The notes below the pieces were generated by a model. That model saw nothing but the letters and a program-made list of their open reading frames with translations. It was not told the DNA's origin and did no database searches. From Phaeobacter sp. A36a-5a (GTDB lineage Bacteria > Pseudomonadota > Alphaproteobacteria > Rhodobacterales > Rhodobacteraceae), in the NCBI RefSeq assembly GCF_037911135.1, contig NZ_JBBLYU010000001.1:310001-374000 (forward strand): a DNA stretch of 64,000 bases. The letters run 5' to 3'. Positions 6,573-43,806 of this stretch are shown piece after piece (position 1 is the first letter of the stretch; each line of letters begins with the position of its first letter). Made by a program: the position numbers and the translations under genes.

Positions 6573-6647
6573 CCGATCGCATCTAACTGTGATGGGCCGG
6601 ACTATAGGCGCATCTTGCCTAACGTGGTAGAACTGCGAGGGGGTTTC

Positions 6648-10483: not shown

Positions 10484-10627
10484 CAATATCCTCGAGGTTT
10501 TGCGATACACTTGCGATACTGATCCCAAAAGGCGTCAATTCCGCGGCATGATCGCGGCAATGCTGGGCAAGTGTGACAACTGACGATAGCCTGCGACAAG
10601 TCTTGCATAAAATGGGCCATCGTCCTC

Positions 10628-11863: not shown

Positions 11864-12706
11864 CTAGCGGCCCCGCGTCCAGCGGGTTTCCTGTCGGCCG
11901 CGAAACAGCGGCGACTTCACCGCGATGGCAACAGCCGCATAGGACATAAATCCCGCCGGGTCGCGCAGCGCCCGCGCCCCAATTGCTGCGGGGCCAGGGC
12001 GGGTGACGTCCTCATTGGCCAGCAGTGCGGGGAACCGCGCGGCAATCTCTGCAACCCCGGCATTCTGGCGTCTGCGCACGCGCACCAGATTGCGAAACCC
12101 CTCGATCAGCGGCCATTGGTAGCTTGCCTCTAGCCGGAGCCGCTCGTGGGGCGCAAAGCTGAGGCGCGCGTAGATATCGTCGGCGATTATGTCCGGCCAG
12201 TCTTCCCAGCGCCCGCGCCCGGCCCGGTTCATCGCAAAGAGGCCAAACCCCGGCACCCCCTGCTGGACAAAGGGCAGTGTTTCCCAGAACCGCCCGTAAA
12301 GGCGGCTGATCAGGCTCTTGGCCGGAGCCAGCCGGGGCGACCCGCTGGCATAGCGCGGCGCGGTGCAATCCAGCGCGTGGCATATCTGCGCCATCAGCGG
12401 TGGGGCGACACACACATCGGCGTCAAGATATACCAAGATGCCACCGGTGGCCTGCGCTTCTCCCCGTTGAAGAGCCCCGATCTTGCCGCCCTCGCGCCGA
12501 TCAATCACCCTGCAATCCCACCCGGGCGGCACCGTCACCGCCTGCGCCGCCGCGACCGTGGTGTCAGTGCAACCGTTGGCGATCACCAAGACCTCGGCGG
12601 TGGCACCATCCGGCAGCGGATCACTGGCAAACAGCGCCGACAGACACGACCCGATATAGCCCGCCTCATTATGTGCGGGGATCAGCACGCTCAACAGCGG
12701 TTTCAT
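11864..12706 (-). CDS. Glycosyltransferase family 2, last gene of the NRPS-PKS operon
   Basis: GT-A type enzyme, 280 residues from MKPLLSVLIPAHNEAGYIGSCLSALF. It has the metal-binding YLDADVCV and the later DDIYARLSF region. The final part (RPGPAAIGARALRDPAGFMSYAAVAIAVK) lacks a strong membrane helix pair. Its start overlaps the stop of the upstream SGNH-glycosidase gene by four bases, so it is translationally coupled and belongs to the operon that runs down from the PKS. The family also includes enzymes that hand sugars to lipids or to secondary metabolites; which one applies is unknown. Confidence 0.85.
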   Translation of the reverse strand: MKPLLSVLIPAHNEAGYIGSCLSALFASDPLPDGATAEVLVIANGCTDTTVAAAQAVTVPPGWDCRVIDRREGGKIGALQRGEAQATGGILVYLDADVCVAPPLMAQICHALDCTAPRYASGSPRLAPAKSLISRLYGRFWETLPFVQQGVPGFGLFAMNRAGRGRWEDWPDIIADDIYARLSFAPHERLRLEASYQWPLIEGFRNLVRVRRRQNAGVAEIAARFPALLANEDVTRPGPAAIGARALRDPAGFMSYAAVAIAVKSPLFRGRQETRWTRGR

Positions 12707-15276
12707 TTCGCCGCCTCCACAGCGCGCCAGCGCGGGTTGTCGTCGGTCAGATAGCGCAGGCTGCCCCAGCTGCCCCATTTTCCGGGTGTCGAAACATCCG
12801 AATAGGCGGTGAACAGACTTCCGCCCAAGGCGGGCCAGCCCTGCAACAGGCTGCGATACAGGCCGCCCATCTCCTCGGTGTAATTGAAATGGCTGAAAAA
12901 ACCGGTCAGCATGTCGTCATCGACCATCGGACCCAAGCCAACCACATGGCTGCCGCCCTCATACATGATCAGGTCGAGCCCGTTGGCCTCTGCAACTTTG
13001 GCATGATAGGGCAGAACCCGGCCCAGAAGATCGCTGATCGTGTCGTCTGAACTGCCGGAAACCAGCCCGTCCTGCAATTCTGCCGCGGCCAATGCGCTGG
13101 CGGCATCATATTGATGCGCCTCGACAAAATCGGCTGCGGCGGTTCCGCTGAGACCCTTGGCCCTGGCGGCGGCCTCAGCCTGCTCGCGGCTCTGGGCAAT
13201 CCAGGCGCGCAGAATTGGCGCGCGTTCCGGCAGGCCGAGAACGCCGCCGAAATAGCCGGTCACCGCATAGGCGTCAAAAGCGCGGGCCGGCGGTCGGCGC
13301 GTGGCATCTTCGGCAACCCAGAGCGGCGCGGTCAGCACCTGTTCCTCCAGCCCCAGCCACCCGGTCTGGGTAGAGATAACGCGCACCAGCCGGTCATCGG
13401 CCGCCGCGCCAAAAACCTCCGTCCAGATCGCGGCAACCTCGGCAGCGCGGCCACCGTAGAATTGCATCCACAGATCCTGGCCACCCCAGCGGCCGCGGGC
13501 CTGATCATCAGCCCAGACCGCCTGTTCGAATTGCCAGTTCCAGACCTCGTTGGAATATTCCACATAGGCGGTCAGCGCGGGGTCCAGCTGCTCCCGCACC
13601 AGCCGCGCGTAGTTACGGACATAGCTGTCGTCGGCCATATGGGGCAGGGTGAACCAGGGCGCGGTGCCAAGCTGATTGGCCAGCGCCACCAGCACCTCCG
13701 CTGGCGCACCTTTGGCCGCCCAGCTGTAGTCCTGCACCCTTGGGCGATCCTCCCAGCCAACCTGCGTGCTGTCGTTGGTGGCCATCCAGTCCATGAATCG
13801 CAGCGCTGCAAACCCACGCATCCGCGCCATGAAATCCGGATTGAAGATGGCGCCGGCCTGCCAGTCCGACAGGTGTTTTTCCATCACCACCGCGATGTTG
13901 CGGATGTAGTCACCGGTTCCCTGCCGGTCGCTGCGCTGAATGCGGATTTCGACCGCGCCGGGACCGGGCGTATAGTCAAAGCGGATTTCGGTCTTGCCGT
14001 AGCGGATGTTCTTGGCCCGCCCCGTCACCTCGACAATCCCGTCGCCGTCAAACAGCAGGACATAGCGCCCAGCGAGGCTGGCGGCCTCCGCAGGCAAATC
14101 GGTGAGGATCAGCGTCCCGACCGAGCCAAGCTCCGGTGGAATTGCGGTCGGCCAGCCATCAGGGTCCAGATATCCCGCTGCTGCAAGATCGGCATAATCC
14201 GCGCCCCCCCATTGCCCGGCCAGATGACCAATCCACGGACGGGCAGTTTTGAAATGGTCGAGAAACGGAGCCTGCGGGCTCCAATCGGCAATCGAGGCCA
14301 GGTTCATCGCAATCGGCTGAGGCGGCACCTCGGCGCCCTGGGGCAGCCCCTGCGCTGCGGCGATGTCGCGCGGCGCGCTGGTCTGGCTGGCCGGAACCAC
14401 TCGGTTCAGCGCAGGCAGCATCGGGTCGTCGGGCAGCGGCGGCGGATCGGCAGGCAGGGCTGCCCGCTGTGTTCGGTCCTGAGCGGCATCCCAGGCAATC
14501 TCCTGCAGTCGTCGCGCCAGGTCCGCCGCGGGCGCCTCGTAGCGACCGCCCCATTTGGAGCGCAGCTGGTGCGGCAGCCCCACCGGAGACTGACCGGTCA
14601 GCACCGCGTATTGCAGCGCCGACAGAAAATAAAACCCAAGATCATTGGGGTGGATATCATCGGCAAAGACATCTTCGATCCGTGCAAGGCCCGGCACCGT
14701 ACCTGCCTGTATGGCGTCATCCAGTCGCGCCATCGCCTGACCGGCCTTGAGCAGCCTGATCTCTCCGCTGGTCTTTTTGTTGACCGTGTCGACGACGTTT
14801 TGCCAGCGCGGCAGATCCGCCGCCAGCCGGTCGCGCCATTGCATGGTCGCCCCCGGATCAAAAGGCACCTCAACCCCGGTTCCGCTGTTCAGGCTGTGCC
14901 AGGTTTCCTGCAGATAGACCTCAACCTCAGGGTTGGCGGTGTGGGCAAGGTTGTAGAACTGCGTCAGCGCCCCCTCGGTATCGCTCCACTTCAGATGGTT
15001 GGTGAGGGGGATCGCCTCGGTCACGATCAGCGCATCCACGCCTTCGGCCAGACGGGTGCGGGCATTGATCCCCTCGGCCTGATCGGCATGTGTCCAATTG
15101 TAGCTGAGCGGCGCGCCGTTGATGATCTGCGCCTCGACCCTGACCTCTTCGGCGATCTGTCCGGCAGTCGCGGCCGGTTGCCGGGCCAGGAGCTGGTCCA
15201 GCATCACCGGATTGTCGGGTCCGAACAGGGAATGCCCGACCATGACGACACTGGCCACCAGATCTGCCAGCGTCAT
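12703..15276 (-). CDS. Two-domain protein: SGNH-hydrolase-like domain fused to a glycosidase-like (GH-A type) barrel
   Basis: Unusual 857-residue protein. Residues 1-280 resemble SGNH hydrolases: Ser16 in GHSLFG (the usual Asp of GDSL is His here) and Asp206/His209 in DDIHPNDLG. Residues ~440-857 look like a glycosidase TIM barrel: VEYSNEVWNW with Glu577 as candidate acid/base, and MYEGGSH with Glu773 as candidate nucleophile. That is the NE...YEGG layout of clan GH-A. A Pro-rich linker (~285-320) and a beta-rich segment lie between. Its N-terminal domain is a paralogue of the protein encoded just upstream (shared ETWH, IHxNDLG and PVGLPHQL blocks), so a duplication is likely. No signal peptide is visible, though the neighbour has one. 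It overlaps both neighbours by four bases. I infer a role in trimming or acylating the polysaccharide, not proven. Confidence 0.75.
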   Translation of the reverse strand: MTLADLVASVVMVGHSLFGPDNPVMLDQLLARQPAATAGQIAEEVRVEAQIINGAPLSYNWTHADQAEGINARTRLAEGVDALIVTEAIPLTNHLKWSDTEGALTQFYNLAHTANPEVEVYLQETWHSLNSGTGVEVPFDPGATMQWRDRLAADLPRWQNVVDTVNKKTSGEIRLLKAGQAMARLDDAIQAGTVPGLARIEDVFADDIHPNDLGFYFLSALQYAVLTGQSPVGLPHQLRSKWGGRYEAPAADLARRLQEIAWDAAQDRTQRAALPADPPPLPDDPMLPALNRVVPASQTSAPRDIAAAQGLPQGAEVPPQPIAMNLASIADWSPQAPFLDHFKTARPWIGHLAGQWGGADYADLAAAGYLDPDGWPTAIPPELGSVGTLILTDLPAEAASLAGRYVLLFDGDGIVEVTGRAKNIRYGKTEIRFDYTPGPGAVEIRIQRSDRQGTGDYIRNIAVVMEKHLSDWQAGAIFNPDFMARMRGFAALRFMDWMATNDSTQVGWEDRPRVQDYSWAAKGAPAEVLVALANQLGTAPWFTLPHMADDSYVRNYARLVREQLDPALTAYVEYSNEVWNWQFEQAVWADDQARGRWGGQDLWMQFYGGRAAEVAAIWTEVFGAAADDRLVRVISTQTGWLGLEEQVLTAPLWVAEDATRRPPARAFDAYAVTGYFGGVLGLPERAPILRAWIAQSREQAEAAARAKGLSGTAAADFVEAHQYDAASALAAAELQDGLVSGSSDDTISDLLGRVLPYHAKVAEANGLDLIMYEGGSHVVGLGPMVDDDMLTGFFSHFNYTEEMGGLYRSLLQGWPALGGSLFTAYSDVSTPGKWGSWGSLRYLTDDNPRWRAVEAAK

Positions 15277-16175
15277 GGGGAAACACCGGTGCGGGGGTGG
15301 CGCGTGACCACCTGCCAGACGATCTCCTGCACCTGCCGCGCGGCTTTGGCGCTGAAAGCATCCGCAGGCGAGCCATCGGCGCGTTGCAGCTGATGCGGCA
15401 GGCCAACCGGGTTTTTGTGATAAAGCACGCTGACATGGGTCAGCGCCACAACATAGGCGCCCAGATCGTTGATATGGATCGGGTCGAGCGCCCCCTCGGA
15501 TGTGCGGGCAAAAAGCGCCTCGCGATGAGTCATCCCGTCGATCTGGCCGTCCTCGGCGGCGCGCACGACGGCGGCCATCACCTGTCCTGCGGGGATCAGA
15601 TAGGCGGGACGTCTCGGATTGCGGCGGCTGTCAGATCCGGCCAGCCCGCCCAGCCAGAGCTGTTCCAGATCACCGTCGATCCGCTTCAGCCAGCCATCCG
15701 GCGTATCCAGCGGGTGCCAGGTTTCATAGAGGTATATCCGCGTCCGATCCGACCCCGCCCGGGCCAGATCAGCCCAGCGGCGAAAGTATCGCGCGCCTTT
15801 GAAATAGCGCAGCGCGTCGCGCAGTTCGACCATCTCCGTCAGGATCACGGCGTCATACTCACCGGAGCCAACCGCCTCGCGTGCATCCCGCCAGACCGGA
15901 GGGTGATTGACCTGATAGAAATGCAGGATATCCAGATCCGGCTCCCAGTGATCCTGCAACGGGGTGCCCGATCCCAGCTGGCTGTTGTAGCTGTGCCCTT
16001 CCGGTGCCAGCTGCCGCACCATATGCGGCATATCGCGACCAACCAGCGAATGGCCAAGGTGGAACACCCGCATTGGGCCCGTCGGGGCCTTCAACAAGGG
16101 CAGGGCAAAGGGGCTGGCCTGCGCGCGCAGTGGCAGCAGCGACAAGAGGGCGAGAAATCCGCGCCGTCCGATCAT
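15273..16175 (-). CDS. SGNH-hydrolase-like exported protein (GHSL variant)
   Basis: A 300-residue protein with an N-terminal export signal MIGRRGFLALLSLLPLRAQAS; the RRGFL core resembles a twin-arginine signal, but Sec export is also possible. After the signal come Ser43 in LGHSLVG (block I, His instead of Asp), IYLYETWHPLD, and DPIHINDLGAY near residue 236 carrying the likely catalytic Asp/His. These are the pieces of an SGNH esterase or O-acyltransferase fold. The end (PVGLPHQLQRADG...VQEIVWQVV) matches the same region of the larger downstream protein. It overlaps the phosphopantetheinyl transferase gene and the 857-residue gene by four bases each. It may remove or transfer acyl groups on the exported polysaccharide; substrate unknown. 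Confidence 0.75.
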   Translation of the reverse strand: MIGRRGFLALLSLLPLRAQASPFALPLLKAPTGPMRVFHLGHSLVGRDMPHMVRQLAPEGHSYNSQLGSGTPLQDHWEPDLDILHFYQVNHPPVWRDAREAVGSGEYDAVILTEMVELRDALRYFKGARYFRRWADLARAGSDRTRIYLYETWHPLDTPDGWLKRIDGDLEQLWLGGLAGSDSRRNPRRPAYLIPAGQVMAAVVRAAEDGQIDGMTHREALFARTSEGALDPIHINDLGAYVVALTHVSVLYHKNPVGLPHQLQRADGSPADAFSAKAARQVQEIVWQVVTRHPRTGVSP

Positions 16176-16885
16176 CGTACCTGTGGCAGCTGTGCGGCGG
16201 TCGCGATCAGCCCCTCCCCGATAACAAAACGCCCGTCAATGGCGTCGCCTTTTCGAAACGGCAGCTGATCCGCCGTGAACCGCGCGCAAAACGTCCCGCT
16301 GATCTGATCGGTGCCCTGCGCCAAATCCATCTCCAGTTCCATCCCGTCAAAGCCAAAGAACCGCTCGCTCAGGCGGTACTGACATTTATAAGCCGCTTCC
16401 TTGGCCGAGAATATCACTTTGGCGAGCTGGCCGGGGCTGTTTTGTTGTGCGAGCCAGTCACGCTCGGCGGGGCGGCAGATCTGCGGGATCAGGTCATCCG
16501 CCAGCGGCGTGTCCTCCTCCACGTCGACCCCGATCCCGCGCATCTGTTGGGGCAGGGCCATAACGGCGACGGCGGCGCTGTGACAATGGCTGATCGAGCC
16601 GACAACCTCAGGCGGCCAGACCGGCGCCCGTTTGGGGCCGACCGGAATGGCGCTGGGCGTCATGCCGAGGGACGACATCGCGCGATGCGCGGCAGCGCGG
16701 CCCGCCGCAAACTCGCGCCGCCGCTTCTCCACGGCATTTGGCGACAGGCAGGCGGCCTCCTCAGGGAAGGGCGGAGGCGGATCGTCCTGCGGATCACAGG
16801 TTTCCACCACGACACAGGCGTCAAACAACCGGCGGATCAGCGCCTTGTGCCGGGCGCTGCGTGAGAGCGGATCGGCAAGGCTCAT
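16172..16885 (-). CDS. 4'-phosphopantetheinyl transferase (Sfp/EntD type)
   Basis: Activates carrier domains by moving phosphopantetheine from coenzyme A onto their Ser; needed by the NRPS and PKS of the same operon. The 237-residue protein has the three family motifs: the WPPEVVGSISHCHSAAVAV region near 90-108, GIGVDVEED near 117-125 (metal-binding Asp and Glu), and IFSAKEAAYKCQY near 158-170 (Glu and Lys essential in the family). The N-terminal region with GRAAAHRAM is of the EntD kind. It overlaps the NRPS stop and the SGNH gene start by four bases, so it is made with its target enzymes. Confidence 0.95.
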   Translation of the reverse strand: MSLADPLSRSARHKALIRRLFDACVVVETCDPQDDPPPPFPEEAACLSPNAVEKRRREFAAGRAAAHRAMSSLGMTPSAIPVGPKRAPVWPPEVVGSISHCHSAAVAVMALPQQMRGIGVDVEEDTPLADDLIPQICRPAERDWLAQQNSPGQLAKVIFSAKEAAYKCQYRLSERFFGFDGMELEMDLAQGTDQISGTFCARFTADQLPFRKGDAIDGRFVIGEGLIATAAQLPQVR

Positions 16886-19800
16886 CCGCTGCGGGCCTTG
16901 CGGTTGGCCCGCATCGCGCGGCGTTTCGACATCATATCGGATTTTGCCGCCGCATCGACCGCGGGGGCGGCGGTGTCCTCTGCCGGGGCCGCTCCGGTCA
17001 GCGTGTCGATATGGCTGGCCAGCCCCGACAGCGTCGGAAACCGGAAGATATCCGTGATCGAGAGCTTCGGCACATCCAGAGCGCCGCGAATGTCGCGATG
17101 GGCCTGCACGGCCAGCAAGGAATGACCGCCCAGGGTGAAGAAATTGTCCTCCGCCCCGATACCGCTGACCCCAAGGATCCCGGCCCAGATCTCGGCAATC
17201 TTGCTCTGTGCTCCGGCGCTGAGCGGGGTGTCGGAGGTGGGAGCAGTGATCCGCACCGGTTTCGGGTCCGGCAGGGCCTTACGGTCGATCTTCTTGTTCG
17301 GCGTCAGCGGGAAGGCGGCGAGATGTTCGATATGGCTTGGCACCATGACGGCAGCGAGCTGCTGCGCCAGCGCGGCCTTGAGCGCTGCCTGATCCGGCGG
17401 CAGCGCGCCGGTGACATAGGCAACCAGCCGGGTGTCTGCCCCGCTGTCGCGCGCCACCACAACCGCGCCGGTTATCCCGTCCATGGCAGCAAGCGCGGCC
17501 TCGATTTCGCCCAGCTCGATCCGCTGGCCCCGGATCTTGACCTGATGGTCACTACGGCCGAGGAATTCCAGCTGGCCATCGCCGCGCCAGCGGACCAGAT
17601 CGCCGGTGCGATACAGACGGGTCGAGGTCACCCCGGCGCCCGCATCACCAAAGGGATCGGGAATAAACCGTTCCGCAGTCAGCTCGGGGCGCTGCCAATA
17701 CCCGGCGGTGACGCCTGCGCCGCCGATCAGCAGCTCCCCCGGCACTCCGACCGGCTGCGGAGACAGATCCTCCTTGACGACATAAACAGTGGTATTGGCA
17801 ATCGGCGCCCCGATTTGGGCGGTCCCGGCGGGCACGCCGGATAGGGTCTGCATGGTTGACCAGATCGTCGTCTCGGTCGGTCCGTACATATTGTGGATCT
17901 CTGCGCTGGTCGCCCCGCGCAGATCCGCGACCAGATCTCCCGGCAGCGCCTCCCCGCCGATCAGCAGGTGCGACAGCCGCCCCAGCACCGGGCGCGCATC
18001 GGCATCCGCGGTGATCATCCGCGCCATCGACGGGGTGCATTGCATATGGGTGACGCCATGGCGCAGGATCTGTGCCGCCAGCGAGACATCCTCCGCCGCC
18101 AGTTCCTGCGGGGCATTGGCAAGACGCAGCACCTCCGCAAGGGGTTTCAGCCCCTCCAGCACCACCTCGGGCGCGATGCCATAGTCGATCAGACAGGCGA
18201 TTTCATCAACGCCAATCCGCTTCAGCTGTTCGACCCGCTGCATGGCATCGGCAATGGTTCCAAACAGGCCGGAGTCTTCGAAATACCGTTCAAAGGCGAA
18301 GTCCAGAATGGCCTCCAGCTCCTCTGTCGAGAGCATCCCGAGATCCATTTCAAACGGGTTTTTCACCCCCTCGGGTTTCTTGAACGCGGGGAAGGCCCAG
18401 GCGTATTGCTTGATCAGACCGGCCGCTGCGCGCAGGTAATCCTTCATCGGTTCACGGGCCGTGGCGCGGGCTTCCTCGCGGGTATCGGCAAGATAGCTGT
18501 GTAGCATCAACGTGACCTTGTGATCGCGCGGATCATGACCAGCCGCGCGCAGGGCGTCGTGGTATATGGCGATCTTGCCCGCGACTTCGTCGATGCTCTG
18601 GCCCAGCAGATGGGTCAGCACATTGGCCCCGATGCTGCCCGCTTCGCGCCAGGTCTCGGGGTTGCCGGCCGTTGTCACCCAGACCGGCAGTTCCTTTGAC
18701 ACCGGGCGCGGCTGGGTCAGCACCGCGTGGTCGCCGCCATCCTTGCGCGGGAAGGCAACCTCCTCGCCGCGCCAGAGCTTGCGCACGGTCTCGATCGCCT
18801 CAAACAGCGCAGGCTTGTTGGCGGGGGGGGTGTTTTCGGGGCGCAGGATGAAATCATCCGGCTGCCAGCCCGAGGCAAAGCCAATACCGGCGCGGCCGCC
18901 GGTCAGATTGTCGATCACCGACCATTCCTCGGCAATCCGGGCCGGGTGGTGCAGCGGCGCCACGCAGGAGCCCGCGCGCACCCCGATATTCTTCGTCACC
19001 GCAGCCACCGCCGCGCCGGTTACCGCCGGGTTCGGATAGGGGCCGCCAAAGGCGTGGAAATGCCGCTCCGGTGTCCAGACCGCGTTGAACCCGTGCTGAT
19101 CGGCGAATTTCGCGCCCTCCAGCAGCAGTTCATATTTGCGCGGACCGGGGCCGTCGTCATTGCCCCAATAGAACAGGTTGAAGTCCATGCCCCGGTCGCT
19201 GGTTGCGATGGGGCCATTGGACAGCTGCAACCGAGCCTCATCACTGGACAGCACCAGCTTGAAGCCGCGCGACAGGGTCCAGAACAGCTCAAGCACGGAG
19301 ATATCAAACGACAGGCTGGTCACTGCCAGCCAGCAATCGCCCGGCTGATGCGGAACCCGCTGGTCCATTGCAGCAAAGAAATTTGCCACATTGCCATGGC
19401 GCACCATCACCCCCTTTGGGGTGCCGGTAGAGCCGGAGGTATAGATCAGATAAGCCAGATCCTGCGGTCCCGGCTGGGTGGTCGGCCCACCGCTGCCTGC
19501 GGGTGTCTCCGGCAGATCATCCAGGCAGAGAACATCGGCAGATGCGGTGCCGGGCAGCTGGTCGCGCAGACGGCTGTCGGTCAGGATCACACTGGCCGCG
19601 CTGTCGGTGATGAAATGCGCGATCCGATCCGCCGGATAGGCCGGATCAAGCGGCACATAGGCCCCGCCCGCGGCCATGGTCGCCAGCGCCGCGATGACCA
19701 GCGCAGGGCTCCGCCCCAGATAGATGCCGACATGGCTGCCCGGCGCAACACCCCGGTGGCGCAGCAGCGCCGCCAGTTGTTCGACCTCCTCAGATAGCTC

Positions 19801-21519: not shown

Positions 21520-22595
21520 TTCTGCTCCTCCGGTTGAGACGGGGTCTGGCGCGTTTCCATAGGCTGGGTTTGGCGGCGGAGAAAGATCGCGCGGCTATGA
21601 TGAACGATCAGGTCCCGCAGAAAATAGGGCGGATCCGAGGCGGGTTTGTCCGACACCAGCCGCCGCAGCCCATAGAGCAGGCTGCCCGTGATCAGCGCCA
21701 ATGTGGCTCCGACCGTATAGGCGCGCCCATGGGTGCTGAGAAAGTAGTGCAGCCTGCTGTCGAACCAGTATTGCGGTGTGCGCTGCCAATCCTTCATCCC
21801 GGTTGAGGCGGATCCCACATGGGCCACCTCGCTTTCCGGCAGATAATGCGTGCTCCATCCGGCGCGGGCGGCACGGTGGCACAATTCGGTTTCCTCGAAA
21901 TAGAGAAAGAAGGTCTCGTCAAAACCTCCAACCGCCTCGATCACCTCGCGTCGGATCATCAGGCTGGCACCAGCGGTCCAATCCAGCTGAGTTGGCTCGG
22001 TCGGGATCTCCATGGGCACCACGGCATCTTTCAGCAGGCGGGTCACGATGCCGGTCCGCACCGAGGATTCGAATTCCCCCGCAATGGTCGGGAACCGGAA
22101 GGCGGTGCAATGCGGCGTCCCATCGGTGCCCCGCACATAAGAGCCGACCAGCCCGGCGGTTGGTGTGGCCTGCAAGAAATCCCGCAATGCGCGGATCGCT
22201 CCCGGCTGCACAAAGGCATCCGAGTTCAGCAGATAATAAAACTCAGGCGCGCTGCCATCGGCGAGGCCGAGGCGAAAGCCGATGTTCATGCCCGCCCCAA
22301 ACCCGCCGTTGCGGTCGCTGGCGATCAGGCGCAGGCGGCCGCTGTCCAGCCAGCCACGCTCCTGCACCGCCGTCAGTAATTTGTCATAGGACCCATCGCC
22401 AGAGCCATTGTCTATGATCACCACCTCACCTTGCAGCGCGTTCACCTGCTCCAGCGCGGCGGCGGCACAGTCCAGCGTCATTTCGGGCGTCTTGTAGTTC
22501 AGGATGATGGTCAGAATACGCGCCTGTTCGGCCCCGGCTGCCGGGCGCGCGCAGGTCTCCGTCTGCTGTGGGGCGGGGCTGTCGGTCATGGTCAT
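21516..22595 (-). CDS. Glycosyltransferase family 2 (rhamnosyltransferase-like) between PKS and NRPS
   Basis: A 359-residue GT-A enzyme: ILTIILNYKTPEMTLDC near 27-43, IIDNGSGDGS, NGGFGAGMNIGF, the metal-binding LLNSDAFVQP, and WTAGASLMIRREVIEAVGGFDETFFLYFEETELC, which is characteristic of bacterial rhamnosyltransferase-type GT2 enzymes. A single hydrophobic stretch (TVGATLALITGSLLYGL, about 295-312) may anchor it to the membrane. It sits exactly between the PKS and NRPS genes with four-base overlaps at both ends. This placement suggests that the product of the assembly line is glycosylated or that the enzymes act on a common lipid-linked intermediate; this is inference. Confidence 0.88.
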   Translation of the reverse strand: MTMTDSPAPQQTETCARPAAGAEQARILTIILNYKTPEMTLDCAAAALEQVNALQGEVVIIDNGSGDGSYDKLLTAVQERGWLDSGRLRLIASDRNGGFGAGMNIGFRLGLADGSAPEFYYLLNSDAFVQPGAIRALRDFLQATPTAGLVGSYVRGTDGTPHCTAFRFPTIAGEFESSVRTGIVTRLLKDAVVPMEIPTEPTQLDWTAGASLMIRREVIEAVGGFDETFFLYFEETELCHRAARAGWSTHYLPESEVAHVGSASTGMKDWQRTPQYWFDSRLHYFLSTHGRAYTVGATLALITGSLLYGLRRLVSDKPASDPPYFLRDLIVHHSRAIFLRRQTQPMETRQTPSQPEEQK

Positions 22596-25500
22596 TCTGC
22601 CGCCTTTGGCGCGCTTTGGCGCAGCGCGGCGGCGTCGGCTGCATCAAGCCGCGCCTTGACCTCGCCTGCCAGCACGCTGACGTTGGGCACCAGCACCATG
22701 CTGTCGTGATCACCCGGCACCTCGACGACCTCGATCGCTGGCGCCCAGCGGGTCCAGTCGTTGTCGTCGTAGACATATTCGCGCTCGCGGCTGACCCAGT
22801 TCCCTGCCGAGACCTGCCAATGGCGATCAAGCGGCGGGCGGAACAATGTGAGAGGTCCGCTCCACGGGCGCAGCTCATAAGCGGGCAAGGCGGCGCGGAA
22901 GGCCAGTTCGACCTTGCGGTTGTTGAACACCGGTGCGCTGCTGTCTTCGCTGGCGGCATACCGGCGTTTTTCGATCTCCCAGGCGATGCGATTGCCGATC
23001 CATTCGCCCAGATACCCGATGCCCTTGTGGCGCAGCTCGGCCCATTTGATCAGCGCCTTGTCGCGGCGGTTCAACTCAGGTCGCATCGGCAACGGTGTGT
23101 CCAGCAGGATCAGCGCGGCGGTGTCTTCGCCGCTGGCGCGCAATTGCTGGGCCATTTCATAGGCGGTCAGCCCGCCGCCGGAAAACCCGCCCAATAGATA
23201 AGGCCCCTCCGGCTGGATGCTGCGGATTTCGGCGAGATAGTCGCGGGCTGCCGCATCAAGCCGGTCATGCGGGGCGTCGTCGCCGATCAGGCCACGGGCC
23301 TGCAGCCCGTAGACCGGGCGGTCCTTGCCAACCATCAGCGCCAGATGGCGCAGGTTCAGAACGTTGCCGAACATGCCGGCCACCAGAAAGAAAGGCCGTC
23401 GCCCGGTGCCATCGCCGGGGTGGAGCTGCACCAGATGGGTATATGCCGGCGTCTCGGCCTGGGGCGTGCCTGTGTGGTCGGCAGAGGTTTCGGTGGTGAG
23501 GCCGCCGCCGGTGCGGGCGATCACCAGTTCGGCGAGCCTCGCGACGGAGGGTGCCTCAAACAGGGTGGAAATAGCCAGATCGACTCCAAAGCTGCGCTTG
23601 ATCTGTGCAAAAAGCCGGACCGCGACAAGGGAATGGCCGCCAAGGTCGAAGAAGCTGTCGTCGACCCCGACCTGCGCCACCCCAAGCAGCCGGGCAAACT
23701 GCGCCGCGATCTCCTCCTCTACCGCGTTGCGCGGGGCGAGGTAGTCGGTGTCGAGCTGTGGCCGTTCGAAGCTCTGGCTGTCCTCGCGCGCCTGCTGCGG
23801 AGGCTGATCGGCCTGTGCCATCAGATCCGGCAGCGCGAGGGAGGATACCACCACCTGCGACAGGCCAGTCGCCAGCGCCCGGCGCAGCGCGTCCGGGCCT
23901 TCTTCGGCGCGGATGCCCTGGCTGATATTGCGATGCAGTCGGCGTTCCTCGGGCGACAGCGGCTGTGCGCCCGGCGATGCGGCCAGCCCCAGATCCGCGC
24001 CGCTGGCGTCTGCTCCCTCTGCCGGGGCCAGTTTGGTTGCACCGGGCAGCTGCTGCATCTGAAAGCCCCGGACCTCAACCAGCACGGTGCCATCTTCGGT
24101 GGTCAGGGTGATGTCGAACCGGGCACTGGTCGCATCGCTGTCCATCAGCCGCATATGGCTGAGCACGTCGCAGGGCAGCGGAGCAAAGACCTCGATACCG
24201 TCATAGGACACCGGCACCCAGAGCGCGGCACCGCGATAGGCGGGAATCAGGTCAATCGCCCATCCGGTGGCAAGATCCATCAGGCCGGGTGGCAGCAGCG
24301 TGCCGTCCTTGGCGGCGATGGCCGGCAGTTGCAGCCGGGCAATGCCTTCGCCCGTCCCCTGTCGCATCTGTTGCAGGACATGCCAGCGCGGGCCGAACTT
24401 CAGATGCGCCTCCTGTGGTGTCCGTAGCCGTTCGCGCTTGGTACAGGGTGACGTTTCGATGGCCACCGGTAGCAGATCGGGCAGGGGGTGCCGACCGGGC
24501 TGCCGCGCCGCGATATCCGTCTCCAGCAGCGCTTGAACATGCAGGGCATAGCCCTCCGCCGTGCGGCTGTAGACGGCAAACTCATAACCGCGCTCGACCG
24601 GCAGCAGCCGCACGACCATATCGCAGGGGGCTGTCTCCGAGACCACGAGCGGGCGCAGGAAATAGAGATCACGCAGGGCAAAAGGCGCCTCATGCCCCAG
24701 TTCGGCAAGTGCCTCGGCGGCATATTCGATGTAGCCGGTGCCGGGGATCAATGCAGTGCCATCCTTGGTGCGGTGTTCATCAAGGATCCACTGGTCGCTG
24801 CTCAGCCGACGATGAAACAGCACCCCGCCATCCGGGGCAAACTGGCGGCTGTCAAACAACGGCTGATCACAGGGGATCGGATCATCACCGACCTCCTGCT
24901 GGCGGGCGCCAATGGCATCTGCCGCCATGCCGACATCTGCCCAGACCCCCCAATCGACGGCAACGACACGGGTTGTGTTGCCCGCAGCCCCGGCACCGCT
25001 GCGGTGCTTGGCAAAGGCGTTGAGATATTCATTCGCGGCGACGTAATCGACCTGGCCGATCGGGCGCGTCACCGTCGAGGAGGAGGAGAACAGCACCATC
25101 AGCTCCAGCGTGTCGGTGCCGAAAATGGCGTCCAGTACCCGCAACCCGCTGACTTTCGGGGCGAGCACCTGGGAAATGTCGTCCTCGGTCTTGGCCAGAA
25201 CCGGCGCGTCATTGATCTGGCCTGCGCCATGGATGACACCGGTGATGGGGCCAAAGGCGGTCTCGGCCTTGGCGACGGCGGCGCGCATCTGTTCGCTGTT
25301 GCAGACATCGGCTGCCAGCGGCAAGACCCGGCCCCTGCCAATGGCGTCCAATGCCATCACGGCGCGGATGCGCTGGGCGGTTGTATTGGCCGGGCTGTGG
25401 CGGTTCAGATAGCTGTCCCACTGGTCACGCGGGGGCAGGCCACCGCGCGAGATCAGCACCACATTGGCGCCATAGCTCTGCATCAGATCCGCGGCGATGG

Positions 25501-28500
25501 TGCGTCCGATGCCGCCGTAGCCGCCGGTGATCAGATAGGTGCCACCCTCGCGGAAGCCGGGGAGTGACGATGTGATCTGATCCTCCTCCGACAGCTCCAC
25601 AGGGCGCCACCGCAGGGTGTAGCGCTTGTCACCACGCCAGAGTGCGGTGTCATTTGCAGGCTCCGCCAGCAGCTCCTCCAGCAGGCGATCCGCAATCGAC
25701 GCGGGCTGGTCCTCCGCCAGCCAGCGCCGCAGCCCACCGGGGCGGCGCGGCAGTTCGATATCGACCGTGGCGCAGGTAAGGTCGGGAATTTCGCGCGGCA
25801 GCACACCGGCAGGGCCGGCGATCATCGCCTTTTCGGGGTAGGGCAGCGGCTCGTCGCGCAGCTGGGCCGCGCCAGTGGTAAACACTGTCATATGCAGTGG
25901 CTGCGGTAGGTCGATCTGGGCCAGAGCCTGCCCCAGCGCGGTCAGCGCATAAAATCCCATCTCCAGATTGCGATCAAAGAAGGAGGCGCCGGGCCGGAAG
26001 GTCTCGCCCTCGGTTACCAGCCAGAAATGGCCGATACGGCTGGGCAGAAGATCGGCCAGCGCCAGATCGGCAAGCAGCGCATCGTAGCCCGCGCGCCCCT
26101 GTTCGGGCGCCAGCATATAGCGGGTCTCGCTCAGTTGCGCATAGGTGTCGCCGGGGCACACCCGCACCACCCGGTGGCCAGCCTGATCCAGCCTTGCGGC
26201 CAGTTCAGAGCAGAGTCCGGCGTCGTCTTCAAACAGCAACCAGGTTTCGGGCTGCTGATCCAGTTCGCCGGTGACGTCCAGGTCGCAGCTTGCCAATGCG
26301 GGCCGCCAGCTGGGGCGCGATCCCCAGTGCGACAGCTGGTCGTGGCGGGCCGGGGTGATGATGGCAGCCTCGGCGCGGGCCGGGGCCGCGGGCTCGATGA
26401 AATAGCGGCTGCGCTGAAACGCATAGGTTGGCAGCGGCAGGCGCTGACGCCGTGCATCGCCCCAGATCTGATCCCAATCGGCGTCCAGCCCGCAGGCCCA
26501 GAGCCGTCCGATCACCCCAAAGAAATAGGCATCATCCGCCATCATCTGCTCGGGATGGCGCAATGAGCTGAGCACCTGACCGGGTTTGATCTTCGGCGCC
26601 ATCTGCGCCAGCGAGGACAGCGCCTTACCGGGGCCGACCTCCAGATAGATGCGGTTCGGCACGTCAGCCAGCGTATCAAGACAGGCGGCGAACATGACCG
26701 TATTGCGCAGCTGGGCAACCCAGTATTCGGGATCGGTGGCCTCGGCGTCGGTCAGGATCTGGCCGCTGCGGTTCGACAGGATCGGGCGTCCTGGTGCTGT
26801 CAGGGTCAACCCGCGCAGGAACTGGCGGTATTCATCCAGAATGCCCTCCAGCATTCGGCTATGGGCAGCAATATCAATCTGGATCCGCTGGTGATCCACC
26901 TCATCGGCGGTGAGCTGAGCCGCAAGCGCATCCAGCGCCTCCTGCGGGCCGGACACGGCAGTGAGGCGTGGGGCATTGACGCTGGCGATGTCCAGATCCG
27001 GCGAAAGCCGGGCCTCAACCCCATCCAGTGGAAGGGAAATCGACAGCATCCCGCCGGCAGGCACCTTGTCGAACAGCCGTCCGCGCAGCAGCACCAGATC
27101 GATGCAATCCTCAAACGACAGCACACCGGCCAGACAGGCGGCGGTGTTTTCACCCATCGAATGTCCCACCAGCGCGGCAGGGCGGATGCCCCAGCTGATC
27201 CAGAGCTGCGCCAGCGCAAATTCCACGATCATGATCAGCGGCAATTGCACCGACGGCTGTTGCAGCCGGGCATTGGCGGCGTCTTCTTCCCCCGGTTCCG
27301 GCAGCCACAGCGCGCGGATGTCATAGTCCAGCTGCGCCTGAAGGTGGTCGAGGCCCCGGTCCATCCAATCGGCAAAGACAGGCTCGGTTTCGTAGAGATC
27401 CCGCGCCATACCCGCATATTGCGCGCCGCCGCCGGGGAACATGAAAACCACCTCCGGCGGACGGTCGGCGCTGTCGTGGTCAAACACGCGTCTGGGGTCG
27501 CCCGCCTCAAGCAGCGCGGCGGCCTCCTCGGCGGTTTCGGCGACTAGGGTGCGACGCTTGGCAAAGCTTCGGCGGCCCTCCTTCAGCGTATAGGCCACAT
27601 CGGCTAGAGGCAGATCCGGGTTCGCGCGCAGATGCGCGGCCAGGGCACTGGCATTGGCATTCAGCGCGGCCTTCGAATGGCCCGAGAGGCAGAGCACCTG
27701 AAACGGAAAATCGCTGTCCTCCGGTGCGGGGCGGGGTGCGGCCTGTTCCAGCACGACATGGGCATTGGTGCCGCCCACCCCGAGGGCGTTGACCGCAGCG
27801 CGGCGCGGTCCCTTGACCGAGGTCCAGTCTCGCAACCGGTCATTGACCACAAAAGGCGCGGTTTCAAAATCAATCGCCGGATTGGGTGCCTCATAGCCGA
27901 GGCTGGGCGGGATCTGACCATGATGCAGCGACAAGGCGGTCTTGATCAGCCCGGCGACGCCGGCGGCGGTATCCAGATGGCCGATATTGGTCTTGACCGA
28001 TCCGATACGGCAGTAACCCACGGCGGCGGTGGTTTCGCGGTAGGCTTCGGTCAGCGCGGTGACCTCGATCGGGTCACCAAGATAGGTGCCAGTGCCGTGG
28101 CATTCGACATAGTCGATGGTGTCCGGCGGGGTCTTGGCGGCGCGCAGCGCCTGTCGCACGGCGCTGGCCTGCCCCTCGACCGAGGGGGCCAGATAGCCGG
28201 CCTTGTCGGCGCCATCATTGTTGATCGCAGAGCCTTTGATCACCGCCCAGATATGATCGCCATCCGCCAGCGCATCTTCCAGCCTGCGCAGGGCAACCGC
28301 ACCGGCACCGGAGCCAAAGACCGTGCCCTGTGCGCGGTGGTCAAAGGCGTGGCAGTGGCCGTCGGGCGACAGGATCTCGTTTTCCTTGAACAGGTAGCCG
28401 CGGCCCTGTGGCAGTTCGATGGTGACGCCGCCGGCAAGAGCCATGTCGCAGTCGCCCTCGCGCAGGGCCTTGCTGGCATAATGCACCGCCACCAGCGAGG

Positions 28501-29092
28501 TGGAGCAGGCCGTCTGAATGTTGACCGATGGTCCCTTCAGATCAAAGACATGGCTGACGCGGGTCGACAGGAAATCCTTGTCGTTGCCGGTATGGCGCAG
28601 CAGGAACATGCCCACGTCATCCACCAGCGGTTTATTGGAGCAGATGTTGAAGTAGAAATAGCTGCCCATGCCGCAGCCCGCATAAACCCCGATGGGGCCG
28701 TTCTGGCTTTCGGGCGGGTGACCTGCATCCTCCATCGCGCCCCAGGCGACTTCGAGGAATTTGCGGTGCTGAGGGTCGAGAATGGCCGCCTCTTTTGGGC
28801 TGAAGCCAAAGAACTCGGCGTCAAATTCGGCGTAGCCGTCCAGCGCAGCGGTAGCGGCGACGTAATTGGGGTCGGACAGCGTCTCGGGGTCTTCGCCTGC
28901 GGCCAGCAGATCCTGCTCGCTGACGGGTTTGATCGATTCCACACCGTCACGCAGGTTTTGCCAGAACGCCTGCGGCGACTGCGCTCCCGGCACGCAGAGC
29001 GACATGCCGACAATGGCGATATCGCCACTGTAGCGTGACGCGTCAAACGGAGTGCGATCTGTGGTTTTCGCGGATGTTTTCAATTGCCCCAA
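22592..29092 (-). CDS. Type I polyketide synthase, KS-AT-KR-DH-ACP-TE
   Basis: A 2166-residue single-module PKS. KS about 22-450 with Cys196 in TACSTSLVAVH and the two His in HGTGT and NIGHLD. AT about 555-850 with Ser645 in GHSMGE and IAAHSRML where specificity is read. KR with its structural subdomain about 880-1380 (TGGYGGIG at 1189-1196, Tyr1350 in DYVAANEYLN). A DH-like domain about 1400-1690 (His1440 in DEHRTKDG, Asp in LMDLATGWAI) stands after KR, not before it as usual. Carrier with Ser1821 in GGHSLVA; thioesterase with Ser1971 in GFSGGG and His2129 in GDHDSMV. No methyltransferase or ER is seen. With the NRPS it could form a short, reduced amino-acyl ketide. Start is TTG at 29092 (GAGGA close upstream; TTG at 29083 also possible). 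First gene of the seven-gene operon. Confidence 0.95.
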   Translation of the reverse strand: MGQLKTSAKTTDRTPFDASRYSGDIAIVGMSLCVPGAQSPQAFWQNLRDGVESIKPVSEQDLLAAGEDPETLSDPNYVAATAALDGYAEFDAEFFGFSPKEAAILDPQHRKFLEVAWGAMEDAGHPPESQNGPIGVYAGCGMGSYFYFNICSNKPLVDDVGMFLLRHTGNDKDFLSTRVSHVFDLKGPSVNIQTACSTSLVAVHYASKALREGDCDMALAGGVTIELPQGRGYLFKENEILSPDGHCHAFDHRAQGTVFGSGAGAVALRRLEDALADGDHIWAVIKGSAINNDGADKAGYLAPSVEGQASAVRQALRAAKTPPDTIDYVECHGTGTYLGDPIEVTALTEAYRETTAAVGYCRIGSVKTNIGHLDTAAGVAGLIKTALSLHHGQIPPSLGYEAPNPAIDFETAPFVVNDRLRDWTSVKGPRRAAVNALGVGGTNAHVVLEQAAPRPAPEDSDFPFQVLCLSGHSKAALNANASALAAHLRANPDLPLADVAYTLKEGRRSFAKRRTLVAETAEEAAALLEAGDPRRVFDHDSADRPPEVVFMFPGGGAQYAGMARDLYETEPVFADWMDRGLDHLQAQLDYDIRALWLPEPGEEDAANARLQQPSVQLPLIMIVEFALAQLWISWGIRPAALVGHSMGENTAACLAGVLSFEDCIDLVLLRGRLFDKVPAGGMLSISLPLDGVEARLSPDLDIASVNAPRLTAVSGPQEALDALAAQLTADEVDHQRIQIDIAAHSRMLEGILDEYRQFLRGLTLTAPGRPILSNRSGQILTDAEATDPEYWVAQLRNTVMFAACLDTLADVPNRIYLEVGPGKALSSLAQMAPKIKPGQVLSSLRHPEQMMADDAYFFGVIGRLWACGLDADWDQIWGDARRQRLPLPTYAFQRSRYFIEPAAPARAEAAIITPARHDQLSHWGSRPSWRPALASCDLDVTGELDQQPETWLLFEDDAGLCSELAARLDQAGHRVVRVCPGDTYAQLSETRYMLAPEQGRAGYDALLADLALADLLPSRIGHFWLVTEGETFRPGASFFDRNLEMGFYALTALGQALAQIDLPQPLHMTVFTTGAAQLRDEPLPYPEKAMIAGPAGVLPREIPDLTCATVDIELPRRPGGLRRWLAEDQPASIADRLLEELLAEPANDTALWRGDKRYTLRWRPVELSEEDQITSSLPGFREGGTYLITGGYGGIGRTIAADLMQSYGANVVLISRGGLPPRDQWDSYLNRHSPANTTAQRIRAVMALDAIGRGRVLPLAADVCNSEQMRAAVAKAETAFGPITGVIHGAGQINDAPVLAKTEDDISQVLAPKVSGLRVLDAIFGTDTLELMVLFSSSSTVTRPIGQVDYVAANEYLNAFAKHRSGAGAAGNTTRVVAVDWGVWADVGMAADAIGARQQEVGDDPIPCDQPLFDSRQFAPDGGVLFHRRLSSDQWILDEHRTKDGTALIPGTGYIEYAAEALAELGHEAPFALRDLYFLRPLVVSETAPCDMVVRLLPVERGYEFAVYSRTAEGYALHVQALLETDIAARQPGRHPLPDLLPVAIETSPCTKRERLRTPQEAHLKFGPRWHVLQQMRQGTGEGIARLQLPAIAAKDGTLLPPGLMDLATGWAIDLIPAYRGAALWVPVSYDGIEVFAPLPCDVLSHMRLMDSDATSARFDITLTTEDGTVLVEVRGFQMQQLPGATKLAPAEGADASGADLGLAASPGAQPLSPEERRLHRNISQGIRAEEGPDALRRALATGLSQVVVSSLALPDLMAQADQPPQQAREDSQSFERPQLDTDYLAPRNAVEEEIAAQFARLLGVAQVGVDDSFFDLGGHSLVAVRLFAQIKRSFGVDLAISTLFEAPSVARLAELVIARTGGGLTTETSADHTGTPQAETPAYTHLVQLHPGDGTGRRPFFLVAGMFGNVLNLRHLALMVGKDRPVYGLQARGLIGDDAPHDRLDAAARDYLAEIRSIQPEGPYLLGGFSGGGLTAYEMAQQLRASGEDTAALILLDTPLPMRPELNRRDKALIKWAELRHKGIGYLGEWIGNRIAWEIEKRRYAASEDSSAPVFNNRKVELAFRAALPAYELRPWSGPLTLFRPPLDRHWQVSAGNWVSREREYVYDDNDWTRWAPAIEVVEVPGDHDSMVLVPNVSVLAGEVKARLDAADAAALRQSAPKAAE

Positions 29093-34986: not shown

Positions 34987-35011
34987 ACCGCGCCCATGGC
35001 TGGGGCGCAGA

Positions 35012-40524: not shown

Positions 40525-40753
40525 GGGACGCTCCGGACAGGCTACAAGATCGGTCCCCGGTCTCGGGCGGATCGGCGCTGACGCCACCGAGACATGTGGA
40601 CCGGGATCAGACCTAACATAGGGCAAACCCGGTGTGTAACGTCAATGTCGCGTGATAGGTTCCCGCGCCAATTCGTGATCAAGCCTCTGACAGATCGGCG
40701 ACAGATCGGCGCTGATGCGCGCCCCCGGTTGGAGCTGACGGGCTGACGACCGG

Positions 40754-43651: not shown

Positions 43652-43806
43652 TCTTAAGTCCTCCTGCTATGGGGCTACCTCTGCCTGATGGCGGCGGGGC
43701 CTGCAAACCTGTGCAATCTGATAGTGTATTCGGGAAAATTTGAAAGATAGCCGTGATCTTCTGCCATAGTAATGACCTGGAGTTGTTTGAAAAGAGGCCC
43801 CCGGCA

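Follow-up and report, generated by a model that had tools for sequence, protein, structure and literature searches.

An NRPS-PKS assembly line within a Wzx/Wzy-type exopolysaccharide locus of Phaeobacter and related Rhodobacterales

NRPS-PKS assembly lines have been studied mainly for the free drugs and siderophores that they produce. Amino acids are also attached to surface glycans by the Dlt (D-alanyl teichoic acid) and AlmEFG (glycyl lipid A) systems, in which an adenylation enzyme and a carrier load the amino acid, and a dedicated acyltransferase moves it in bare form. A lipid anchor or carrier for polysaccharide has been proposed as the product of rhizobial RkpA, which belongs to a fatty-acid-synthase-like set that includes an enoyl reductase and has no amino-acid loader. 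Conglobatin synthesis starts from a formyltransferase (FT)-A(Gly)-PCP loading module ahead of a PKS, and glycine is the predicted substrate of CongA (available part of PMC4504003). For glycine-type A domains bearing a monooxygenase, the code DILQLGMIWK is given for four domains (excerpted text of PMC12283262), and the insertion in SolF of solanimycin lies between A8 and A9 (PMC10204066, in its available part). A literature search covering few subscription journals returned no link between this assembly line and a polysaccharide, including in the accessible portions of PMC8739492, PMC10204066, PMC4062626, PMC12283262, PMC4504003, and PMC11225332. In Phaeobacter inhibens T5, a PKS gene and an NRPS gene two locus tags apart (Inhi_1972 and Inhi_1974) are given simply as PKS/NRPS genes, with no polysaccharide link in the accessible passages of PMC4062626, where the tags of two further strains differ by 42 and 46. 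On the basis of tag spacing and genus, the T5 pair probably corresponds to the genes described here.

Gene content of the locus

The window (i.e., the whole 64-kb stretch of Phaeobacter DNA analyzed) carries seven minus-strand genes (11864-29092) inside a Wzx/Wzy-type exopolysaccharide locus. All six junctions between them are 4-base ATGA stop/start overlaps, and the seven coupled genes reported in a preliminary description of this DNA were recovered in full, each with the same position and strand. They encode a type I PKS of 2166 aa (KS-AT-KR-DH-ACP-TE by Pfam domains; 22592-29092), a GT2 glycosyltransferase located between the PKS and the NRPS (GT2a; PF00535; 21516-22595), the NRPS loading protein (16882-21519), an Sfp-type 4'-phosphopantetheinyl transferase (PPTase; PF17837 and PF01648; 16172-16885), an SGNH-hydrolase-like protein (15273-16175), a fusion of an SGNH esterase-like domain with a TIM-barrel (GH-A-like) glycosidase (12703-15276), and another GT2 glycosyltransferase (GT2b; PF00535; 11864-12706), which likely starts in the ATGA overlap at 12706.

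The surrounding genes include two components of a Wzx/Wzy locus, an initiating sugar-phosphate transferase (Bac_transf; 5520-6572, plus strand; PF02397, E 2e-57) and a Wzx flippase (9119-10528, minus; PF13440, E 4e-47). Pfam matches likewise corroborated the GT4 glycosyltransferase (10628-11845, plus; PF13692, E 4e-39), the WecG/TagA/CpsF (GT26) glycosyltransferase (30972-31730, plus; PF03808, E 2e-45), and the two further glycosyltransferases claimed previously (GT2c, 31776-32762, minus, PF00535; and GT2-like GT2d, 32759-33874, minus, PF13704). The Wzz and Wzy assignments of the preliminary description can be kept in part: the Wzz-like chain-length determinant (7810-9096, plus) scored 21.4 bits against PF02706, below the Pfam cut-off of 25.5, and the Wzy-like polymerase (29350-30813, minus) gave a weak Wzy_C match (E 0.014). 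We retain both identities because of conserved position and annotated relatives. Wzz homologs occur in 26 of 29 and 15 of 20 contexts, the Wzz ortholog in Parasedimentitalea adjoins an annotated CpsD/CapB tyrosine kinase, the Rhizobium locus carries a clear Wzy_C protein, and Wzy co-occurs with the NRPS (see below). The ortholog of the protein encoded at 6615-7706 (plus; no Pfam match) sits at the position of this Parasedimentitalea kinase, which makes it a probable CpsD/CapB-type partner of Wzz.

No Wza outer-membrane exporter was found among the scanned genes of the 64-kb window, and Pfam recognized no acyltransferase in this Phaeobacter locus; an OafB-like acyltransferase is present in 11 of 16 loci of the other type (type II). 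Two minus-strand open reading frames were rejected: the one at 10535-11812 is antisense to the true gene (GT4, plus strand), and the one at 34315-35061 has no family match, a glucokinase on the plus strand being the likely gene.

Domains of the loading protein and its partners

The NRPS consists of a formyltransferase (to residue ~290), the C-terminal lobe of a C domain (~300-540), an A domain split by a TIGR04020 luciferase-like monooxygenase (780-1130), and a PCP (1440-1504). Neither the formyltransferase nor the embedded monooxygenase was noted in the preliminary description. The formyltransferase has the Fmt/ArnA fold and is fused to A-PCP with its catalytic Asn, His, and Asp present, as in FT-A-PCP loading modules; these residues are kept in 54, 55, and 54 of 58 aligned rows, respectively (2 rows are gapped), and two proteins, those of genomes G329 and G160, carry the motif as judged by alignment column. 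LgrA was the best PDB sequence match of the NRPS overall. The C-domain remnant matched a profile of seven C domains (hhalign probability, 96.9) in the C-terminal lobe only, and the HHxxxDG condensation motif was not found in this Phaeobacter NRPS. With no working condensation domain, the NRPS can therefore only start a chain.

The monooxygenase is inserted between A4 and A5, which are 475 residues apart here and 110 and 124 residues apart in variants without it. Of 58 aligned proteins, 57 have an A-domain code of the pattern DILQ-x-G-(M/F)-(I/V)-W, the tenth code position is lysine in 57 (the remaining one has a gap), and the exact code DILQLGMIWK occurs in 16, including this Phaeobacter NRPS. 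A TIGR04020 domain between A4 and A5 together with a Gly code is the MtaG-type arrangement. The MtaG-type role (i.e., action on a growing chain with amide release) would not apply, as judged by position, because the formyltransferase comes first, no working C domain is present, and the thioesterase is on the PKS. Two natural NRPS variants lack the monooxygenase, and one of these also lacks the formyltransferase motif; in both, the code is still of glycine type and the locus of the same kind. Genome G138 retains the formyltransferase and the locus, with the monooxygenase missing.

Each of eleven catalytic residues of the PKS is kept in 54 to 56 of 56 aligned rows, the misses being mostly gaps, and the Pfam domain scan detected no enoyl reductase. 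Neither the SGNH-like protein nor the SGNH-glycosidase fusion has a Pfam match. The former has an export-signal-like N terminus (by eye), and its name is inferred from 30% identity to the N-terminal part of the fusion over 274 columns (E 3e-26). The fusion gave no match in a PDB sequence search; its Foldseek matches were GH10, GH51, and GH26 enzymes and GDSL esterases (E 1e-4 to 1e-2), and E577 (in an Asn-Glu pair) and E773 are invariant in 15 rows. This fold comparison weakly suggests a GDSL esterase joined to a TIM-barrel glycosidase.

Distribution and genomic linkage

NRPS orthologs were detected in 119 of the 345 genomes of the family, or 118 of 344 genera (roughly one-third of those sampled). 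Of 49 in-family contexts, 45 have the NRPS, GT2, and PKS genes side by side, and 45 have at least three polysaccharide-gene homologs within ~40 kb; among 80 named genomes, the corresponding numbers are 79 and 74. Gene order varies between lineages, and the association with polysaccharide genes is retained. The arrangement is not due to chance, as this set of genes is found repeatedly in the family. In a small random-stretch control (4 x 16 kb), none of the 23 query genes had a homolog.

Co-occurrence was counted over the same 345 genomes, which are related, so the counts are not independent. Wzy is present in 114 of 119 NRPS genomes versus 20 of 226 others (in 3 of these 20, a variant or fragmentary NRPS is present). 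Where NRPS and Wzy share a contig, they are at most 30 kb apart in 84 of 91 genomes and more than 60 kb apart in 6; in the five of these six that were fetched, Wzx, Wzz, and glycosyltransferase genes still adjoin the NRPS. GT2a occurs in 111 of 119 NRPS genomes versus 4 of 226 others; in 105 of those 111, at most 8 kb separate it from the NRPS. Since six inspected loci that lack the NRPS have a GT2a-like gene (31 to 34% identity) close to Wzy, this glycosyltransferase type is not confined to the assembly line. The SGNH-glycosidase fusion was found in 113 of 119 versus 13 of 226 genomes, many of the matches spanning its glycosidase part only; among 109 genomes with listed positions, it is on another contig than the NRPS in 24 and more than 60 kb away in 4. 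Pairwise-distance correlation of 13 families across the 80 named loci (r = 0.39 to 0.93) singled out no partners.

The preliminary description tied the assembly line to the polysaccharide locus, a link that would fail if the operon lay as often away from polysaccharide genes as near them. The contexts above and the co-occurrence of Wzy, GT2a, and the SGNH fusion uphold this link. As a unit, the seven-gene operon is only partly conserved: NRPS-GT2-PKS persists, usually with the PPTase nearby, while the rest is reordered and the SGNH genes are often elsewhere.

Beyond the family, NRPS homologs lie beside polysaccharide genes in the three rhizobial relatives inspected (Aminobacter, Rhizobium, and Methylobacterium), and the Wzx/Wzy/WecG-type association spans Rhodobacterales, Rhizobiales, and Hydrogenophaga. 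Two other outside relatives, G629 and G687, have one and zero, respectively, of the polysaccharide homologs of this locus. The phage collection yielded two A-domain matches only, both distant. Counter-cases include G270, in which the NRPS and PKS occur without GT2a beside cobalamin genes (no polysaccharide homolog in 40 kb), and G197, in which a 46%-identical protein is part of a multi-module NRPS/PKS cluster. With these as the exceptions, the in-family contexts do not resemble ordinary free-metabolite clusters.

Proposed pathway, alternatives, and comparison with known systems

The domain order, motifs, gene linkage, and co-occurrence observed in the sequences make it fairly probable, in our view, that this is a one-extension hybrid line dedicated to the exopolysaccharide, supplying a C4 acid to the lipid-linked repeat before export. 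In the reaction order that we infer, the PPTase would prime both carriers, the A domain of the loading protein would activate glycine, the formyltransferase would formylate its amine, and the embedded flavin monooxygenase would hydroxylate its alpha carbon. The PKS would then add one malonyl unit and reduce and dehydrate it, and its thioesterase would release or transfer the chain. The small amino-acyl-ketide acid of the preliminary description is consistent with this NRPS/PKS domain order and may be an (N-formyl-)glycine-derived C4 acid (e.g., a 4-formamido-(4-hydroxy)-but-2-enoyl group); the fate of the starter is uncertain because hydroxylation in myxothiazol-type pathways leads to glycine cleavage. 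GT2a most likely uses or receives the C4 unit, which would join the undecaprenyl-linked repeat that the initiating transferase builds together with WecG, GT4, and the GT2 enzymes. Wzx would flip the repeat, Wzy polymerize it, and Wzz set the chain length, and the SGNH esterase and the SGNH-glycosidase may trim the acylated polymer outside the cell.

A free, perhaps glycosylated, secreted small molecule (a metallophore, signal, or defense compound) is an unlikely product, although NRPS-PKS lines usually give free products, a thioesterase ends the PKS, and a glycosyltransferase gene lies between the two synthase genes. The genes could then have come to lie in a polysaccharide locus through clustering of surface functions or binding of the product to the matrix, and distant homologs in G197 and, for the A-monooxygenase part, in Nostoc and Streptomyces do belong to ordinary metabolite clusters. 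Against this, the Wzx/Wzy/WecG-type association persists across gene orders and the lineages named above, Wzy and the SGNH fusion co-occur with the NRPS, and among the gene families that 8 or more of 16 type-II loci have in common, inspection by eye, supplemented by one Pfam check, recognized neither a regulator nor any exporter but Wzx.

Still less probable is an iterative PKS that makes a special lipid as an anchor or carrier for the polysaccharide. Such a role would have a rhizobial precedent in FAS-like PKSs beside polysaccharide genes; a PKS-type lipid carrier acting alone was discarded, however, since the PKS has neither the enoyl reductase of an RkpA-like system nor its independence from an NRPS, and a strictly kept glycine-type code and FT motif would be needless for a plain carrier. 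Equally improbable is a variant in which the monooxygenase cleaves glycine to a glyoxylyl (aldehyde) starter and the resulting reactive oxo-enoic acid cross-links the polymer. The A-domain code found here is that of Gly-monooxygenase domains described as glycine-cleaving, and the insertion lies between A4 and A5, as in myxothiazol/melithiazol (available part of PMC10204066). We saw no direct sign of glycine cleavage, and because the locus and the formyltransferase persist in G138, which has no monooxygenase, cleavage is not required for the pathway as such.

If the line indeed feeds the exopolysaccharide, a mostly marine family apparently reserves an assembly line for a surface polymer; this would place roseobacter PKS/NRPS genes that have so far had no product and would predict a polysaccharide substituent so far unseen. 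The chances seem about even that these loci define a widespread exopolysaccharide class with an NRP-polyketide residue (formylated, hydroxylated glycine plus malonate) fixed in its repeat unit, a Wzy subfamily of its own, and its own esterase-glycosidase, in which case such a glycan would be produced by roughly one-third of the genera sampled in this Rhodobacterales family. The natural variants with and without the monooxygenase and the formyltransferase provide a structure-function series.

Among described systems, the FT-A(Gly)-PCP modules of CongA and oxazolomycin and LgrA of linear gramicidin likewise start a chain with an N-terminal FT, A, and PCP; the present protein differs in its embedded monooxygenase and in the C-domain lobe between FT and A, and it is accompanied by one PKS protein only, with the genes in a polysaccharide locus. 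Myxothiazol/melithiazol-type Gly A domains have the TIGR04020 domain in the same A4-A5 position, at least in the source parts available, and SolF of solanimycin and PuwE (domain 6ket) belong to the same class of glycine A domains with an embedded flavin monooxygenase. Described members act on a growing chain, several cleaving glycine to an amide, whereas here the domain is in a loading protein. In contrast to Dlt and AlmEFG, a PKS extends the amino acid, and no transferase of their kind was recognized in this locus. Finally, the initiating transferase, Wzx, Wzy-like and Wzz-like proteins, WecG, and several glycosyltransferases are shared with known Wzx/Wzy exopolysaccharide loci, from which this one differs by the absence of Wza among the scanned genes and by a complete NRPS-PKS line that has a PPTase of its own.

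Linkage of the assembly line to polysaccharide genes

The coupled seven-gene operon at 11864-29092 on the minus strand was confirmed, with an ATGA overlap at every junction (at the last one if GT2b, the outermost GT2 gene, starts at 12706), and its flanks encode the initiating sugar transferase, a Wzz-like protein, Wzx, a GT4 enzyme, a Wzy-like protein, WecG, and two GT2 enzymes. The genome holding the window comprises 4.05 Mb in 12 contigs. After the polysaccharide locus lie TamB and TamA (Omp85; 35012-40626, minus strand), and TamB was also within the fetched stretch of 8 of the 29 first-draw relatives. The plus-strand gene at 43753-45222 encodes a polysaccharide deacetylase-like domain followed by an OHCU decarboxylase in one protein; it adjoins urate oxidase and purine permease genes (i.e., a purine degradation cluster).

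The preliminary description had placed the NRPS-PKS line inside a Wzx/Wzy locus, and a search for their co-occurrence bears this out for most relatives. NRPS orthologs (E value of 1e-200 or better) were found in 119 of 345 genomes of the family Rhodobacteraceae (118 of 344 genera). Contexts were fetched for 49 places: the relatives search supplied 29, and the family search supplied 20, of which G179 contributed two. The NRPS-GT2a-PKS trio, in which GT2a is the intervening GT2 gene, was adjacent in 28 and 17 of these contexts, respectively, and at least three of nine polysaccharide gene homologs occurred within approximately 40 kb, again in 28/29 and 17/20. G034 (a 9.5-kb contig), G270, and G197 (NRPS in a large NRPS/PKS cluster) failed both counts, G179b failed trio adjacency, and G329 failed the polysaccharide count (GT4 alone in the fetched stretch; Wzy about 22 kb off). 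In G270 (L127-L128), NRPS and PKS genes lacking GT2a are surrounded by cobalamin genes and glutamine synthetase, with no polysaccharide homologs; this is possibly a subtype with another use.

Among the best 80 of at least 559 relatives from a pattern scan, a set that favors close relatives and overlaps with the fetched contexts, the trio was kept in 79 loci, and 74 had at least three polysaccharide homologs within 10-kb flanks. The other six are three short contigs (L149, L164, and L200) and L197, L207, and L221, with one, two, and zero homologs. The genera of these 80 include Leisingera, Tritonibacter, Sulfitobacter, Ruegeria, Roseovarius, Salipiger, Shimia, and the betaproteobacterium Hydrogenophaga. 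Since the arrangement of the genes flanking the trio varies strongly from lineage to lineage, retention is not merely due to short divergence. On a plasmid of Ruegeria sp. SCSIO 43209 (L096:27744-31658), genes for a UbiA prenyltransferase, a GtrA protein, an FAD oxidoreductase, and an SDR stand consecutively beside the NRPS-PKS locus, a row that we take to resemble the DprE1/DprE2/UbiA polyprenyl-arabinose set.

Across the 345 family genomes, NRPS and Wzy (E value of 1e-25) were both present in 114, with 5 having NRPS only, 20 Wzy only, and 206 neither. The corresponding numbers were 111, 8, 4, and 222 for GT2a (1e-60) and 113, 6, 13, and 213 for the SGNH-glycosidase fusion (1e-25). Fisher P values were <1e-60 for all three, not to be taken at face value because the genomes are related. 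Two of the four GT2a-only genomes, and two of the 13 with the fusion only, carry monooxygenase-less NRPS variants; 3 of the 20 with Wzy but no strong NRPS match (G138, G150, and G200) hold NRPS pieces that include the formyltransferase (FT) end. NRPS and Wzy were on different contigs in 23 of the 114 genomes; of the 91 same-contig pairs, 84 were within 30 kb, 1 within 60 kb, and 6 further apart. GT2a was no more than 8 kb from the NRPS in 105 of 111 genomes (1 within 30 kb; 5 on another contig). The fusion is more loosely linked: among 109 genomes with listed positions, it was within 30 kb in 79, within 60 kb in 2, and farther away in 4, and it was on another contig in 24. Every genome with a Wzy score above 340 bits has the NRPS, a variant, or its fragments; the top score in a genome having none of these was 337.5 bits. 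Six inspected weaker-Wzy loci without the NRPS hold Wzy, other glycosyltransferases, and a GT2a-like gene (31 to 34% identity), with no fusion gene within 20 kb.

In a class-wide set of 385 genomes, seven matched at 1e-180. Two of these, G629 and G687, come from outside the family, and their NRPS-PKS pairs have one and zero window polysaccharide homologs. Matches were found in 29 plasmid records, of which 8 were inspected. Polysaccharide genes adjoin the NRPS on plasmids of Parasedimentitalea, Ruegeria, Paracoccus, and Aminobacter; by Pfam, the Rhizobium BG6 locus carries Wzx, GT2, and Wzy_C, and the Methylobacterium locus carries GT4, an epimerase, and a Wzz/kinase protein. In Nostoc and Streptomyces, the homologs belong to ordinary clusters. 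Three Hydrogenophaga loci (L199, L202, and L224; two MAGs and one isolate) carry the trio with 54 to 55% identity to that of the window, which suggests that it was passed between classes.

Domains and natural variants of the encoded proteins

In the NRPS, an FT is followed by ~240 residues and then by an A domain into which a monooxygenase is inserted; a PCP comes last. The monooxygenase matches TIGR04020 (MupA/Atu3671 luciferase-like; 472.7 bits versus a cutoff of 244.45), and the N-terminal 545-residue model (mean pLDDT, 90.4) matched the Fmt/ArnA formyltransferase fold. Residues ~300 to 540 matched only the C-terminal lobe of condensation domains (hhalign against a profile of seven C domains: probability, 96.9; E value, 1.4e-10; FT-part control: probability, 0.1). 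Since only this lobe was matched and the window protein lacks the HHxxxDG motif, it could load a substrate but probably does not catalyze condensation. The FT catalytic Asn, His, and Asp are kept in 54, 55, and 54 of 58 rows by alignment column. Two rows are gapped at the motif, the frame being interrupted by a stop in G001 and by the contig end in G034. The letters that Nostoc and Streptomyces show in these columns are meaningless, as the FT motif is absent from both rows. G179 and G185 each carry two NRPS copies (C6 and C47; C142 and C72); in one G179 copy (G179a), the FT motif is degenerate and reads NFFDGPLP, and in the second, no GT2a separates the NRPS from the PKS.

The NRPS is fragmentary in G200. 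In G138 and G150, its frames (1,141 and 1,113 amino acids) lack the monooxygenase, with A4-A5 distances of 110 and 124 residues versus 475, and G150 additionally lacks the FT motif. Both keep a glycine-type code, as read by eye, and the same kind of locus; thus, the core appears to be glycine loading plus the PKS, and formylation and hydroxylation appear to be tailoring.

The PKS has the order KS-AT-KR-DH-ACP-TE, and each of eleven catalytic residues is conserved in 54 to 56 of 56 aligned rows. The nearest solved KS-AT structures include PDB 8xjz, an entry also holding a peptide synthetase chain. The model of the SGNH-glycosidase fusion (mean pLDDT, 79) gave weak matches to GDSL esterases and GH10/GH26/GH51 TIM barrels; its E577, which belongs to an Asn-Glu pair, and its E773 do not vary among 15 rows, a pattern that fits clan GH-A. 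The separate SGNH-like protein shares 30% identity with its N-terminal part. The family that includes the acyltransferase-3/SGNH protein of G031 occurs in 11 of 16 type-II loci.

Fate of the product

The preliminary description proposed an acid decorating the glycan. Our best reading, which we consider rather probable, is a dedicated line that would perform loading and one extension, with its product built into the lipid-linked repeat. Attachment is the weakest step, as neither the acceptor of the thioesterase nor the role of GT2a is readable from sequence. A free glycosylated metabolite seems unlikely as the product, and we regard a special lipid, or equally a glyoxylyl-derived cross-linker, as improbable.

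In the portions of the literature searched, no published link of such an assembly line to a polysaccharide was found. The accessible text on Phaeobacter inhibens T5 lists the PKS Inhi_1972 and three NRPS genes, including Inhi_1974 (PMC4062626). The spacing of these two tags fits the trio, of which they are probably the PKS and NRPS, an assignment resting on that spacing; in two other strains, the tags printed there differ by 42 and 46 (PMC4062626). For Tritonibacter, the accessible text describes a type I PKS cluster and an NRPS-like cluster dissimilar to known clusters (PMC11225332).

Starter unit and parallels in known assembly lines

The starter is likely N-formylglycine, optionally alpha-hydroxylated, as judged from the A-domain code, the site of the monooxygenase insertion, and a published loading module. 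With code positions set by eye on the basis of A-domain motifs, the window protein reads DILQLGMIWK. This exact code occurs in 16 of 58 aligned proteins and DILQMGMIWK in 26, and DILQ-x-G-(M/F)-(I/V)-W fits 57 of 58. According to the available part of one report, DILQLGMIWK is common to four glycine-activating domains with a monooxygenase (PMC12283262). The loading module of conglobatin is given, in the part of the source available, as FT-A(Gly)-PCP, argued from the formylation demonstrated in linear gramicidin (PMC4504003). In myxothiazol and melithiazol, as described in the accessible text, a monooxygenase between A4 and A5 accompanies hydroxylation of the glycine alpha position (PMC10204066), and the insertion in the window NRPS is in this same place.
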